From positions 1 to 20,262 of the IMG/VR virus record IMGVR_UViG_3300042391_000328: a stretch of 20,262 bases of DNA; one strand, written 5' to 3'. Both the position numbers and the translations under genes were made by a program. The notes beneath the pieces were generated by a model, which ran no database searches, had not been told where the DNA came from, and was given only the letters and a program-made list of their open reading frames with translations. Within the stretch, counting starts at the first letter, position 1. Every line of letters begins with the position of its first letter. The DNA comes from a virus. This document shows positions 7,025 to 20,262 of the stretch, one piece after another.

Positions 7025-7046
7025 TAATTATTTTTTAAAAATAATA

Positions 7047-7063
7047 TATTTATACAATATAAA
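7047..7063 (+). promoter_or_regulatory. Putative late-promoter motif upstream of the 7074 gene
   Basis: TATTTATACAATATAAA lies 10 bases before the ATG at 7074. The same 17 bases recur at 11614-11630, also 10 bases before an ATG. The block holds an inverted repeat, TTTATA-caa-TATAAA. A role as promoter or operator is inferred from recurrence and position only. Confidence 0.5.
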
Positions 7064-7073
7064 ACACAATATT

Positions 7074-7478: not shown

Positions 7479-7498
7479 TTTAATCGAAACTAAATTTT

Positions 7499-7548
7499 AA
7501 ATATCCAAAGTGCAGATTTAATAATAAATTTGTGTTTTGGATATTTTC
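7499..7548 (+). terminator. Putative AT-rich intrinsic terminator
   Basis: AAATATCCAAA (7499-7509) pairs perfectly with TTTGGATATTT (7536-7546), and the 3' arm runs into TTTTCTTT. The loop has further pairing (ATTTA with TAAAT around ATAA). It sits 21 bases after the stop of the 7074 gene. GC content of the stem is low, so termination strength is uncertain. Confidence 0.55.
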
Positions 7549-7552
7549 TTTA

Positions 7553-7560
7553 TATTTATA
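7553..7560 (+). promoter_or_regulatory. TATTTATA motif upstream of the tail sheath gene
   Basis: TATTTATA lies 59 bases before the sheath ATG and directly after the putative terminator at 7499-7548. It belongs to the motif set at 7047, 9966, 10560 and 11614. It would give a longer leader than the others. The promoter role is inferred. Confidence 0.4.
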
Positions 7561-7619
7561 TGAGTATTAATGTAGGTAATAATTAATACACACTTAAAAA
7601 TACAAATAGCACAAATAAA

Positions 7620-9944: not shown

Positions 9945-9965
9945 TACGAAAATCAATAAAGTAGA

Positions 9966-9974
9966 TATTTATTA
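9966..9974 (+). promoter_or_regulatory. TATTTATTA motif upstream of the tail tube gene
   Basis: TATTTATTA is 22 bases before the tube ATG, in the 52-base gap after the sheath gene. It is a one-base variant of the TATTTATAC motif seen elsewhere in the window. It could let the abundant tube protein be transcribed independently of the sheath. Confidence 0.35.
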
Positions 9975-9996
9975 ATACAAATAAAAGGAATAAAAA

Positions 9997-10485: not shown

Positions 10486-10503
10486 TCTAAAAATAATAAA
10501 AAT

Positions 10504-10532
10504 AAGGGGATATCAAAAGTATCCCCTTTTTT
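10504..10532 (+). terminator. Strong rho-independent terminator after the tail tube gene
   Basis: AAGGGGATA (10504-10512) pairs with TATCCCCTT (10520-10528) around a 7-base loop, TCAAAAG. A run of six T begins at 10527. It lies about 20 bases past the tube stop codon. This is a textbook intrinsic terminator and separates the sheath/tube block from the chaperone block. Confidence 0.9.
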
Positions 10533-10559
10533 ATGCTTTCTAATTTTTTAATTTCTATG

Positions 10560-10567
10560 TATTTATA
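10560..10567 (+). promoter_or_regulatory. TATTTATA motif upstream of the gp26-like gene
   Basis: TATTTATA, continuing TATAC, lies 24 bases before the ATG at 10592 and 27 bases after the terminator's T-run. A terminator directly followed by this motif fits a new transcription unit. Inferred promoter. Confidence 0.45.
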
Positions 10568-10591
10568 TATACAAACAAAATAAACATCGTT

Positions 10592-11591: not shown

Positions 11592-11604
11592 TCCTCACTT
11601 TTTT
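11574..11604 (+). terminator. Rho-independent terminator overlapping the chaperone stop codon
   Basis: AAAGTGAGGAT (11574-11584) pairs perfectly with ATCCTCACTTT (11591-11601) around a 6-base loop, GCGTTA, with a run of six T from 11599. The TAA stop of the extension frame (11589-11591) lies in the loop and at the base of the 3' arm. The stem therefore doubles as coding sequence for the last residues, KVRMR. Confidence 0.88.
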
Positions 11605-11613
11605 ATTATACAA

Positions 11614-11630
11614 TATTTATACAATATAAA
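11614..11630 (+). promoter_or_regulatory. Putative late-promoter motif upstream of the 11641 gene
   Basis: TATTTATACAATATAAA is identical over 17 bases to 7047-7063, with the same 10-base distance to the ATG. It directly follows the terminator at 11574-11604. This is the strongest candidate for the start of the tape measure/baseplate transcription unit. Confidence 0.55.
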
Positions 11631-11640
11631 TGGATAAACT

Positions 11641-17196: not shown

Positions 17197-19518
17197 ATGT
17201 CAGCATTTCCAAATTTCTCAAATATTGCAGATTACGTTCAAAACGAACTAGCTCTTAGAAAAGGGGATATTTATAAAGTATCCAACTTAAATGCTTGGGT
17301 TAGAGTTGCATCCGGTGTAGGTGGCGGCTGTCAAATACTATCAAATCCAAATTGGGATTTATTTGCAAACTACCCATCTATATATGGTAGTGGTACTATG
17401 AGTGGTACAATAGGGCTTACTTGGTCTAATAATTATATTATTGCCAGTGGTGAGTTTCATGGATTTAGACCTAAACCAAATATAACATCAATTGAAATAG
17501 ACGAAGGTGCTGGTGCACTTTCTAGAAAAGCAACATTTTCAATAACCTGCTATACAAGAGCACAATTAGATACTGTGTGTAAATACTATTTAGAACCTGG
17601 ATATACAATATTTTTAGAATGGGGATGGAACACTGCAAACGGTGTATCCGGATATACTAAAGAATTAAATGGTGATAGTGTTGGTCAATTTCAATCATTT
17701 GATGCGGTTAATGAAAAACGTAAATCAGCTGGTGGTCATTATGATAATTATTTGGGATTTATAACAGGTGGAAGCGTTGCTATGAGTGGACAAGAATGGA
17801 CAGTGACTGTAAAATGTACGGGATTTACAGAACTACCAGCATTTCTTATGGCAGCGGATAACGTTGAACCGGCTAATGGTGAAACCACAACTACGAAAAC
17901 TTATGAATCATATGAAATAGATTTTGAAGCAGATTTTGGTAAACAGAGATTTAAGCAAGCATTTAATAGATTGGCAACAAATAAACAAAGTGTTGATGTT
18001 GCTGATACTTTAATACAAGATGTTATTACTGCATCTCCTTTGAATTTTATAAATGTTGATGAAAATGTAAAAGCTAAAATGAACAGCCAATTATCGGGGA
18101 CTAGTTTTTTAGGTTTTAAATTTGGAGGAGGGGCCAAGACAAAAGATGAAGGAAAAACCGCAACCGGTAAAAAATCAACAACGTCAAAAACTGTGGAGAT
18201 TCCAGACGGTACGGAATTAATTGGTGATGCGGGATTTATAAAGTTTTCGGCATTATCTGAAATTTTGAGTAGAATTGGATTTCAGGCATTTAAAGTAGGT
18301 CCTAAAATAGTTAGTGTAAGGGTAAATACAAAAAATACCGTATGTAGTGCATTTCCAAAAATATTTAGTACCGATAAAAGTAAACTATTTATACCAAACC
18401 CAAACACCCCTAAATTTTCATTACTCCAAGCATCAGAAGGGATTACTCAAAAAGATTTTACTAACATTATTAATAATTCAATATCATATGAACAAAAAAA
18501 AGTATTATTCCCATACGATAAAGATATAAAATTCGGTAATGTTGAAGGCAAAGGGCAGATACAATATGGGAAAGATACAACTATTGAACGAATAAATAAA
18601 GATGCATTAACGTATGGGTTTTTAGATGACCTTTATATAAATATGGAATTTGTTAAAGGTATTATGGAAACAAAGAATTTTTCTATAAAAGATGCGTTAT
18701 ACCAACTATTGAATGGAATATCTTCTGCAGCAGGGGGTATTTGGGATTTTCAAATTCAAGAACAAAGTGCTCCTGAAGATACTACCGAGTTGGTTGTAGT
18801 TGATATGAACATGGCACCACAATCTTCCACAACGCCATATCAATTTTCATTATCCGGTGTACAATCCGTTTTTATGGATGCGGCATTGGATTTAGATATT
18901 AGTGGTGCAAAGATGAATCAGATAATTGGAAACCGATTAGGACAAAAAGTTAATGGAAGTCAAACTGATATAAAAAGTAAGAAAAAAGGTCTTTTTTCTG
19001 ATTCGGATGATTTGGTTTTAAAAAGTATAGAAGCTAAACGTGGTGAACCAAATGATGCTACACCAGTTTTAAAAAATAAAAGTAAAGACGAGATTAAAAA
19101 AGATAAAGAAGCAGCTGCTGAGAAAGCCAAAGAAAAGGCAATGCAGATGTTTTTAAGTAAAATTGGATACGCACCAAAAATTGAGTTAAAAGACAATTCT
19201 GATTTTACGAAACCACTTGAGGAAATGACTTACATTACGGCATATAATGACCAATTGGTATTTGAGGCATTGAAAAATGGACATGATAAAGTAAGTGAAC
19301 AAAATGGAGTATCCGCATTGATGCCAATTAAATTTAGTTTTACGATGCATGGTATTAGCGGTATTAAAAGGGGCGATAAATTTACAGTAAGTGGAATTCC
19401 AAAAGCGTATGAAGAAACGGGATTCTTTCAAGTAACATCCGTAAAACATACAATTACAGATATGCTTTGGAAAACCGAAATAACAGGTGGGTTTAGATTA
19501 AATAAACCTAAAGCATAA
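17197..19518 (+). CDS. Baseplate hub-like structural protein
   Basis: 773 residues. The N-terminal part holds GEFHGFRPKPNITSIEIDEG, then RKATFSITCYTRAQLDTVCK and YYLEPGYTIFLEWGWN, typical of large hub-type virion proteins of marine T4-like phages. The centre (about residues 310-345) is a Lys/Thr-rich, probably flexible segment. Residues about 590-650 are Lys/Glu-rich and helical (KSKDEIKKDKEAAAEKAKEK). The C-terminal domain has FTMHGISGIKRGDKFTVSGI, then YEETGFFQVTSVKHTI and WKTEITGGFR, a pattern seen at the end of gp27/gpD-like hub proteins. It is about twice the length of T4 gp27 (391), so extra domains are fused. Position after the gp53-like gene supports a baseplate role. No lysozyme domain is visible. 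Confidence 0.65.
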   Translation: MSAFPNFSNIADYVQNELALRKGDIYKVSNLNAWVRVASGVGGGCQILSNPNWDLFANYPSIYGSGTMSGTIGLTWSNNYIIASGEFHGFRPKPNITSIEIDEGAGALSRKATFSITCYTRAQLDTVCKYYLEPGYTIFLEWGWNTANGVSGYTKELNGDSVGQFQSFDAVNEKRKSAGGHYDNYLGFITGGSVAMSGQEWTVTVKCTGFTELPAFLMAADNVEPANGETTTTKTYESYEIDFEADFGKQRFKQAFNRLATNKQSVDVADTLIQDVITASPLNFINVDENVKAKMNSQLSGTSFLGFKFGGGAKTKDEGKTATGKKSTTSKTVEIPDGTELIGDAGFIKFSALSEILSRIGFQAFKVGPKIVSVRVNTKNTVCSAFPKIFSTDKSKLFIPNPNTPKFSLLQASEGITQKDFTNIINNSISYEQKKVLFPYDKDIKFGNVEGKGQIQYGKDTTIERINKDALTYGFLDDLYINMEFVKGIMETKNFSIKDALYQLLNGISSAAGGIWDFQIQEQSAPEDTTELVVVDMNMAPQSSTTPYQFSLSGVQSVFMDAALDLDISGAKMNQIIGNRLGQKVNGSQTDIKSKKKGLFSDSDDLVLKSIEAKRGEPNDATPVLKNKSKDEIKKDKEAAAEKAKEKAMQMFLSKIGYAPKIELKDNSDFTKPLEEMTYITAYNDQLVFEALKNGHDKVSEQNGVSALMPIKFSFTMHGISGIKRGDKFTVSGIPKAYEETGFFQVTSVKHTITDMLWKTEITGGFRLNKPKA

Positions 19519-19522
19519 TAAA

Positions 19523-19897
19523 ATGAATATAGATAGATACAGTGAAATATCAAATAATGGTAGTACTTTTGATGAAAAGGTAATATCCGCTCATATACCA
19601 ACACCAACTGAATTGGATTATAATAGAGGCTATATTGTGCGATATTTTATTCAAAAAGCAAATGATTCAAAATCTAGAATAGTTGAAGTGGATTATATTG
19701 GGTATAAAAAATTTGTAGGAGATGTGTTTTATACCGCAGCTACCTTAGATTGGAAAATAAAGGGAAACGATGCGGAAATAACTGAGTGTAATTTTAAATC
19801 AATAAAGACCGTTATTAATAAAATACCATTAATACAATCATATCTTCCTAATTTAAAGCAATTTAAAAAGAAAACCGATTTGGTAGTTTCGGAATAA
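19523..19897 (+). CDS. Small protein of unknown function at the end of the baseplate block
   Basis: 124 residues, not recognised by name. The N-terminus is polar (MNIDRYSEISNNGSTFDEKV); the core is YNRGYIVRYFIQKANDSKSR, then VEVDYIGYKKF, FYTAATLDWKIKGNDAEITE, and a basic C-terminal helix (LPNLKQFKKKTDL). It looks like a compact alpha/beta protein without signal or membrane segment. It starts 4 bases after the hub-like gene and is the last protein gene before the tmRNA, so it is probably cotranscribed with the baseplate genes. A minor baseplate or hub-associated part is a reasonable guess from context only. Confidence 0.75.
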   Translation: MNIDRYSEISNNGSTFDEKVISAHIPTPTELDYNRGYIVRYFIQKANDSKSRIVEVDYIGYKKFVGDVFYTAATLDWKIKGNDAEITECNFKSIKTVINKIPLIQSYLPNLKQFKKKTDLVVSE

Positions 19898-19902
19898 TTT
19901 CG

Positions 19903-19911
19903 TATATTTAC
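19903..19911 (+). promoter_or_regulatory. Candidate tmRNA promoter element
   Basis: TATATTTAC ends 10 bases before the tmRNA 5' end at 19922, in the 24-base gap after the last protein gene. It resembles the TATTTATAC motif before several protein genes and also a relaxed Bacteroidota TAnnTTTG element. With RNase P trimming a leader of a few bases, the spacing fits a -10-like box. Inferred. Confidence 0.4.
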
Positions 19912-19921
19912 ATAATCATAT

Positions 19922-20262
19922 GGGGATGCCATGGAATTGATTGCAATGAGAATGGTAGTACCACACGTAGACCGAAGTACTAGATGTCTTTAAATCTGTA
20001 CAAAACAATAACTGACGAAATGTCAACTATGACCTTTGATTCTATGATGGAATTCATTGGGGCTTCTGAGTACGCATACGCTGCTTAGTTCATTCCGCAT
20101 CACTCGTGGAACATTTAAATAGAAGTGAACAAAAAGGAGCTCTACCTATCGGCTCTTAAAAACTGATAGGTTGGTGGAAAGCTGTACTAACCATACGGCC
20201 CCAATTATTTTGGAAAGTGAATAAGATTAAACTTTACCTAAACGTGTGATATGCTGGTATTA
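19922..20262 (+). ncRNA. ssrA: Phage-borne tmRNA (3' end outside window)
   Basis: The 5' end GGGGATGCCATGGAATTGATTG matches the tmRNA pattern GGGG-TG-TGGA-T-GA. Secondary structure supports it. CACACGT (19962-19968) pairs with ACGTGTG (20242-20248), the P2 helix. A candidate PK1 is AGAC (19969-19972) with GTCT (19986-19989), plus GTAC-t-AGAT (19977-19985) with ATCTGTAC (19994-20001). A tag frame ends EYAYAA and TAG at 20086-20088. A textbook H-type pseudoknot at 20135-20170 joins AGGAGC to GCTCTT (one G-U) and CCTATC to GATAGG. Later complementarity (GCTGTA with TACGGC, TGGT with ACCA) suggests another folded unit. tmRNA with SmpB rescues stalled ribosomes and tags the product for proteolysis. 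The T arm, acceptor 3' strand and CCA lie beyond the window edge, and the D-domain is diverged from host consensus. Confidence 0.88.
20014..20088 (+). other. tmRNA tag reading frame
   Basis: In the frame that ends GAG TAC GCA TAC GCT GCT TAG, codons are open back past 20011. If the resume codon lies about 12 bases after PK1, as in E. coli, it is GAC at 20014, giving a 24-residue tag: DEMSTMTFDSMM, then EFIGASEYAYAA. The end YAYAA resembles the usual YALAA degron, but the tag is much longer than the common 8-15 residues. The resume position is inferred. Confidence 0.6.

Follow-up and report, generated by a model that had tools for sequence, protein, structure and literature searches.

Phage-encoded tmRNAs have been reported before (PMC4131195; PMC7162821; PMC9004378), and in one survey they were found in 402 of 18,146 phage genomes, given there as 2.3% (PMC9004378). 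Tags of 10 residues are the commonest in the tmRNA database (PMC11915505). In the accessible parts of the sources, the tmRNA genes of aquatic or Bacteroidota phages such as Melnitz (PMC9004378), Maribacter phage Panino and Chryseobacterium phage MA9V-3 are circularly permuted two-piece genes. A longer tag is found in the Bixzunavirus tmRNA of mycobacteriophages Alice and LRRHood (Bxz1 type), where an acidic, K/R-free tag of 25 residues exceeds that of the host (ADSHQRDYALAA in the ARAGORN library). Large freshwater Bacteroidetes myophages that encode ribosomal protein bS21 have also been described (PMC9723584), in a report whose text does not contain the word 'tmRNA'. Phage tmRNAs are thus already known, and it is the long conserved tag described below that marks a new variant. 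Searches of the openly licensed literature on phage tmRNAs and tags turned up no recognised account of this long-tag family.

The window analyzed here, a linear IMG/VR record 20,262 bases long, carries T4-like phage tail genes, among them those for sheath, gp19-type tube and baseplate proteins. An earlier note on this DNA had placed a tmRNA at 19922-20262 on the plus strand, 24 nt past the stop codon of a gene for a 124-residue protein (19523-19897, same strand). The ORF list agrees with this placement, and the gene itself was borne out by a complete copy in a relative, L026 (IMGVR_UViG_3300042938_000586), which matches positions 19500-20262 of the window with 0 mismatches in 763. The tmRNA of the window is real, of the standard one-piece form and cut by the contig end. 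It opens with GGGGATGCCATGGAATTGATTG and comprises the first 341 of 386 nt, and the final 45 nt are readable at L026:6741-6785. In L026, ARAGORN predicts a one-piece tmRNA of 386 nt with the tag DEMSTMTFDSMMEFIGASEYAYAA, and RF00023 is matched over its full model at 92.6 bits (cut-off 47). The check proposed in the earlier note, an Rfam model match with a T arm and acceptor partner downstream, came out positive in L026 (GACAGGGGTTCGATTCCCCTCATCTCCACCA), where the T arm, the CATCTCCACCA end and the pair G3·U70 are present. On the window alone, ARAGORN predicted no tmRNA gene and an Rfam search at gathering thresholds gave no match; a permissive Rfam search returned a single match of 10.5 bits (E 6.1), to the permuted family RF04321. 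A permuted two-piece gene was considered and rejected, as this score compares with 47 bits needed and the order in L026 is that of a one-piece gene.

The final two proteins of the window served to fetch related loci from IMG/VR (21 loci and 80 loci). RF00023 scored 73-96 bits in all ten loci given to Rfam, and of 14 records that were large or served as references, 10 exceeded its cut-off. The four below the cut-off comprised two isolates, Microcystis phage Mel-JY01 and Flavobacterium phage immuto, a contig whose tmRNA is truncated at its 5' end, and a 276-kb relative with the 124-residue protein gene. At the DNA level, the end of the window had no match in the phages collection. The whole tmRNA matched 104 records there, none covering 80% of the query, and among the 20 matches listed it aligned over 31-35 nt at its 3' end only. 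A pattern built on the DNA of the tmRNA's 3' half gave no match in genome contigs.

In the Bacteroidia, the class of Flavobacterium, 110 of 119 genomes exceeded the RF00023 cut-off, with 112-164 bits in these 110 except for two at 76 and 48. The 30 best-scoring Bacteroidia loci were one-piece genes, all with ARAGORN tags of 8-10 residues that mostly resemble GENNYALAA; one of the 30 tags, DQVDKLNSVP, was probably mis-called. The gene studied here shares with such bacterial one-piece tmRNAs (RF00023) a full-length model match, the acceptor pair G3·U70, the T arm, P2, a resume region and a tag with a stop codon. It differs from them in being encoded by a phage, in its lower scores (57-100 bits among the phage genes) and in a tag of 23-26 residues. 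ARAGORN labels the phage tags 'not identified'; its library holds 37 tags of at least 23 residues among 1269, including those of Mollicutes, diatom plastids and Bxz1-type phages. A long, acidic, K/R-free tag is shared with the Bixzunavirus tmRNA, but the tags of the latter end in AALV and its host belongs to another phylum. Homology between the tag of the window and the Bxz1-type tag was considered and dropped (p 0.02-0.74 over 17 tags). The permuted genes of Melnitz, Panino and MA9V-3 differ from the present one in gene form and in their tags, as far as the accessible sources describe them. In our searches, Panino (L400:27557-27889) and MA9V-3 (L401:2767-3125) scored 62 and 65 bits with RF04321 and had tags of 16-17 residues, while the 30 tmRNAs of the host class are one-piece. 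The annotated span of the Panino tmRNA overlaps two tRNA genes, and an annotated clpX lies 3.8 kb from the tmRNA of MA9V-3.

The RNA structure was assessed in an alignment of 22 distinct phage tmRNAs by counting pairs in the acceptor, the T stem and P2. Standard pairs were found in 98.6% of 572 cells, and both sides had changed in 7 of 26 pairs. The acceptor, with its 5' strand GGGGATG at 19922-19928 (plus strand) and its partner CATCTCC in L026, was paired in 100% of cells, as was the T stem. The P2 helix named in the earlier note held up in these counts. Its 5' strand, GTAGTACCACACGT, lies at 19955-19968 and its 3' side (ACGTGT ... GGTATTA) at 20242-20262, both on the plus strand, with the last pair lost at the contig end; 97.0 and 97.7% of its cells were paired, with double changes in 3 of 14 pairs. 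Four of five covariation measures beat all 500 shuffles, and the fifth, which counts further pair types, did not rise above them (14 vs a shuffled mean of 15.7). Pairing fell to 31-58% in slid structures, a control that favours a structure read off one member sequence. Complementarity of the PK1 type is visible by eye, and an H-type pseudoknot is plausible by eye. The pair G3·U70, which is the alanine identity pair, was invariant in the 22 aligned tmRNAs. Among 31 representatives of a wider set, the acceptors varied widely (GGGGATG/CATCTCC, GGGGCAT/ATGCTCC, GGGCCTA/TAGGTCC and others), and G3·U70 was found by script in 30; the remaining one (L485, shortened by ARAGORN) reads CAGGTCC by eye and also has U70. 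CCA is encoded in 10 of the 22 aligned genes and the remainder read CAA or CTA, so the host must add CCA to the products of these 12 genes.

The tag reading frame of the window (20014-20088, plus strand) consists of 24 codons and a TAG stop, with GAC as the resume codon. GAC and GTA are unusual resume codons beside GCN and GGN. ARAGORN on L026 confirmed the YAYAA tag ending that the earlier note had read, and most relatives end in YAxAA. A set of tags was chosen regardless of tag sequence, giving 23 distinct frames from 144 of 162 loci, with the L066 type added by hand; 17 of the 18 loci without a readable tag are cut by the contig end. None of the tag frames in this set has an internal stop codon, and all length differences are whole codons. 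Entropy at the three codon positions was 0.38, 0.39 and 0.83, and the third-position excess was matched by 2 of 20000 column shuffles. The ratio pN/pS was 0.43 in frame, compared with 1.52 and 1.86 in the shifted frames, which hold stop codons in 24/24 and 18/24 sequences. Together, the codon-position and frame controls indicate that selection acts on the tag peptide. Ahead of the tag end lies a conserved extension of 15-18 residues with the pattern E[LM]S[ST]x[TN][FY]x[DS]x[MV]x[FW]. Alternative tags called by ARAGORN (VNKPEHYLSAP and others) were rejected as mis-chosen resume sites, since the upstream frame is open and conserved there too.

These controls bear on a reading in which the gene is an ordinary tmRNA of host origin and the long tag a product of neutral drift, with only the last residues mattering. 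Its YAxAA end does resemble host tags such as GENNYALAA, and the ARAGORN library contains long tags from Mollicutes. Neutral drift is nevertheless at odds with the frame and codon-position controls, and alignment columns 1-19 of the tag (pN 0.185, pS 0.442) are about as constrained as the last six (pN 0.156, pS 0.391). In one group of relatives, L479-L482, which were selected by their extension, the extension is retained where the end has changed to ADEATFA. Host derivation is further opposed by a tree that combines the 22 phage genes with 30 from Bacteroidia and 3 from other phages, 55 tmRNAs in all; the 22 form one clade with support 0.999, a result that is indicative only given the hard alignment. 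We therefore regard drift from a host gene as quite unlikely.

The tag had no match in solved structures at E 10 and none in the phages collection. Against 395 Bacteroidia, all 10 matches were weak (E 0.08-0.93) and fell in open frames of 68-932 residues, and ARAGORN found no tmRNA in the eight of these ten that were examined. A search of 395 Bacteroidota genomes, run without a positive control, gave 0 matches. The tag as a mimic of another phage protein was also considered and rejected: a profile search of six-frame ORFs from the window, two large related contigs (G002 and G009) and two isolate stretches (L207 and L208) returned nothing above threshold but the three tmRNA tags.

The T4-like context proposed in the earlier note is supported by the sheath (phrog_23, 4.4e-71), a gp19-type tail tube and baseplate proteins; the matches behind these assignments also include phrog_4542 (6.4e-31), PF06841 (6e-11), phrog_150 and phrog_7145. 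At its left end, positions 1-1113, the window holds the start of a large fibre-like protein with long collagen-like G-x-S/T repeats, open at the contig end. The 124-residue protein, the last before the tmRNA, has no Pfam or PHROG match. Of 174 loci in which the 5' end of the tmRNA is present, a count in which contigs repeat, 169 have a homolog of its gene no more than 1.5 kb ahead of the tmRNA. Among 80 IMG/VR contigs, 60 have a tmRNA start directly after this gene; the other 20 mostly hold more distant proteins or are cut short. The earlier note had placed the tmRNA inside the tail-gene cluster, but it sits at the 3' edge of that cluster. In contig G002, 10 of 13 ORFs between 56.7 and 72.3 kb were compared with PHROGs, and 8 of the 10 beyond the tmRNA could be named: DNA polymerase, nuclease, endolysin, SSB, UvsX, exonuclease, DnaB helicase and ribonucleotide reductase. 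These replication genes make the tmRNA of G002 the border between the tail module and the replication module. Host ssrA genes are known integration sites (PMC9004378; PMC11915505, in their accessible parts), and the tmRNA might on that account be a remnant of integration. Such an origin is extremely improbable for a whole gene that has promoter and terminator signals of its own, adjoins the same phage gene in nearly all loci and stands apart from host tmRNAs in the tree.

A candidate promoter precedes the tmRNA. TTTGG at 19879-19883 (plus strand), which we take to be the -33 element of a sigma-A-type promoter, belongs to the single match to TTTGG-N17-21-TATATTT on either strand of the window, ending 11 nt before the tmRNA. 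The looser pattern TTTGG-N17-21-TANNTTT has three plus-strand and four minus-strand matches in the window. The second box, TATATTTA at 19903-19910 (plus strand), corresponds to the Flavobacterium sigma-A -7 consensus TAnnTTTG, which is located at -12 to -5 (PMC9723704). TAnnTTT begins 18-27 nt ahead of the tmRNA 5' end in 55 of 57 distinct upstream sequences; the exceptions, L160 and L203, are both tmRNAs that adjoin tRNA genes. Behind the tmRNA, a hairpin followed by a T run was found in all three sequences folded (z -4.5, -5.8 and -4.6). In L026 (6786-6830) and relatives, this terminator hairpin often appears by eye to overlap the next promoter, with TTTGG inside the hairpin, a spacer of N19 and a TATCTTTG-like box after the T run. 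A promoter and terminator scanner was set aside as uninformative (6 promoter-like sites vs 7.0 expected), and folding was used instead. The scanner reported 0 terminators, with none behind the tmRNA or between the tail genes and the tmRNA, probably owing to an internal loop and a long end loop.

The distribution of this promoter class was examined in five large contigs, excluding the two promoter sites of the cassette itself. Upstream of the tmRNA lay 1 of 20 host-type promoters in G002, 0 of 16 in G009, 0 of 17 in G006, 3 of 40 in G013 and 2 of 4 in G010, where the upstream side makes up 42, 20, 23, 37 and 92% of the length, respectively. Depletion on the structural side had P values of 0.000018 to 0.032 over the five contigs, in tests that are not independent: G002 and G013 have most promoter sequences in common and G006 and G009 several, which leaves about three lineages rather than five. 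A sixth contig, G008, with its tmRNA beside tRNA genes, had three promoter matches. The earlier note had suggested late expression. Late transcription together with the tail genes, sustaining ribosome rescue after host shutdown, would fit the shared strand, the short distance to the last gene and a scan without a terminator-like site in between, which makes read-through possible. Against it stand the sigma-A-type promoter in that same gap, the only strict match in the window, the -7 box conserved in nearly all upstream sequences, the terminator signal that follows the tmRNA and the rarity of host-type promoters upstream of the tmRNA in the large contigs. Late expression is not supported by these signals and seems unlikely, and a promoter of its own, predicted to be readable by the host, appears to be the better reading. 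Five gaps between structural genes of the window (7025-7073, 7479-7619, 9945-9996, 10486-10591 and 11592-11640) have a TATTTAT-containing motif in common by eye. The idea that the ATATTTATA-type motif is an exclusively late promoter was dropped, as TATTTATA is found on both sides of the tmRNA, including the replication side in two relatives.

The nearest isolates by sheath protein are Microcystis phage Mel-JY01, at 48.8% over 99% of the protein, and Flavobacterium phage immuto, at 53% over 47% of it. Two of six large contigs with a tmRNA, the closely related G002 and G013, encode ribosomal S21, and so does Mel-JY01, as do the large Bacteroidetes myophages noted above (PMC9723584). In G002 the S21 gene, at 107 kb, lies away from the structural genes, unlike the arrangement in the accessible text of that report. 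These sheath relatives, the promoter type and S21 suggest that the host is likely, though not proven, to be a member of the Bacteroidota. A search for SmpB (PF01668) gave no match in any of 14 records, which measure 72-276 kb and include 12 metagenome contigs of uncertain completeness, while 11 of 14 control genomes were positive. The phage tmRNA presumably uses the SmpB of the host. This would also suit a decoy that titrates SmpB or blocks host trans-translation, as host SmpB would be common to both, and a decoy role has been suggested in the accessible text on the TLD-only form of DS6A (PMC4131195). A decoy has no need of a conserved peptide, and the present gene has a complete structure, a resume region and a selected frame with a stop codon; we consider such a role very unlikely.

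The findings are probably best explained by a phage-encoded one-piece tmRNA that acts in trans-translation with host factors and whose tag extension probably adds a function. For charging, SmpB use, timing, the fate of tagged proteins and the role of the extension, we infer the following course. The tmRNA would form a transcription unit of its own, with a promoter readable by host RNA polymerase with sigma-A, and the transcript would then be trimmed. Host AlaRS would charge it with alanine through G3·U70, and host SmpB and EF-Tu would bring it to ribosomes stalled on broken mRNA. Translation of the tag frame from GAC to TAG would append an acidic tag of 24 residues. Its YAYAA end (YAxAA in most relatives) resembles host degrons, and proteolysis of the ClpXP type would be expected. 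The extension, selected as a peptide, would probably add a function, for example by offering an adaptor or a phage partner a place to bind.

A further-reaching reading, which we put forward tentatively and hold to be rather less probable than not, is that the tmRNA serves as a vehicle for a viral peptide. The extension would then be the selected product and engage a host or phage partner during takeover, with phages swapping the cassette within a large aquatic family distinct from host tmRNAs. It could be joined to every rescued chain, or be freed almost alone from ribosomes stalled near the start codon. Candidate partners would be a protease adaptor, a defence protein or the ribosome. The extension may form an N-capped helix and is acidic and K/R-free (S-T-x-T-F-[DE]-D-x-M-x-F-[VI]-G-A). 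A long conserved tag unlike that of the likely host group offers a direct handle on why phages retain their own tmRNA. Should the extension redirect or protect the proteins that receive it, or bind a factor of the host, trans-translation would be a tool of takeover rather than housekeeping.

The long conserved tag and the exchange of the cassette are new beyond the first reading of this DNA. When IMG/VR was scanned with the tag alignment, 303 stretches emerged as candidates, of which 153 were confirmed and 80 kept, and a second scan with more distant tags gave 444 candidates, 248 confirmed and 80 kept; the two sets overlap each other and the earlier locus sets. In these loci, conservation at the N-terminal side of the tag is partly imposed by the search patterns, while the tag end is not. 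ARAGORN found a tmRNA in 109 of the 152 loci L403-L554 and one or more tRNAs in 72 of them; those without an ARAGORN tmRNA are cut by contig ends, bear introns or were missed. In 35 of the 41 loci L442-L482 a tRNA gene lies inside the fetched stretch, unlike the setting in the window. RF00023 exceeded its cut-off in 14 of 16 examined loci of this group (57-98 bits), and the two misses, L479 and L481, carry a group I intron. Overall, 44 distinct tags were obtained, 43 of them of 23-26 residues and one of 20. K, R, H, C or P occurs in none of the 44, and 42 end in AA. That the tag end is mostly kept without being imposed by the search speaks for a degron.

Exchange was examined in 153 pairs of 18 loci, among them 103 pairs in which the neighbouring gene had less than 70% nucleotide identity (mean 67%). 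In those 103 pairs, the tmRNAs averaged 83% identity, and their longest exact run had a median of 41 nt, compared with 16 in the gene. The clearest case is L039 and L085, which are identical over 448 nt (7 upstream, the 386 of the tmRNA and 55 downstream) and diverge immediately in both flanks. The tmRNA cassette thus appears to be swapped between phages as a gene-sized unit among otherwise diverged neighbours. Such exchange would explain why the contig ends at most 430 nt from the tmRNA 5' end in 30 of 60 contigs, and why it ends within the tmRNA in the window: a stretch common to co-occurring phages, if co-occurrence is assumed, would give branching assembly graphs.

Several members of the family have further features. 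The tmRNAs of L055 (6397-6829) and L175 have a pseudoknot region extended by about 47 nt, where a hairpin resembles a reverse-complement tRNA T arm; ARAGORN found no tRNA in the L055 stretch. The introns of L479 and L481 (both at 1789-2012; RF00028, 97 and 96 bits) split the T loop by eye, and L482 has a closely similar long-tag tmRNA gene without the intron. T-loop introns have been described in bacterial tmRNAs (PMC11915505, in its accessible text). GOLLD RNA (RF02032, 283 and 208 bits) was found about 0.8-0.9 kb downstream of the long-tag tmRNAs in L461 (2602-3016) and L462 (2700-3069).
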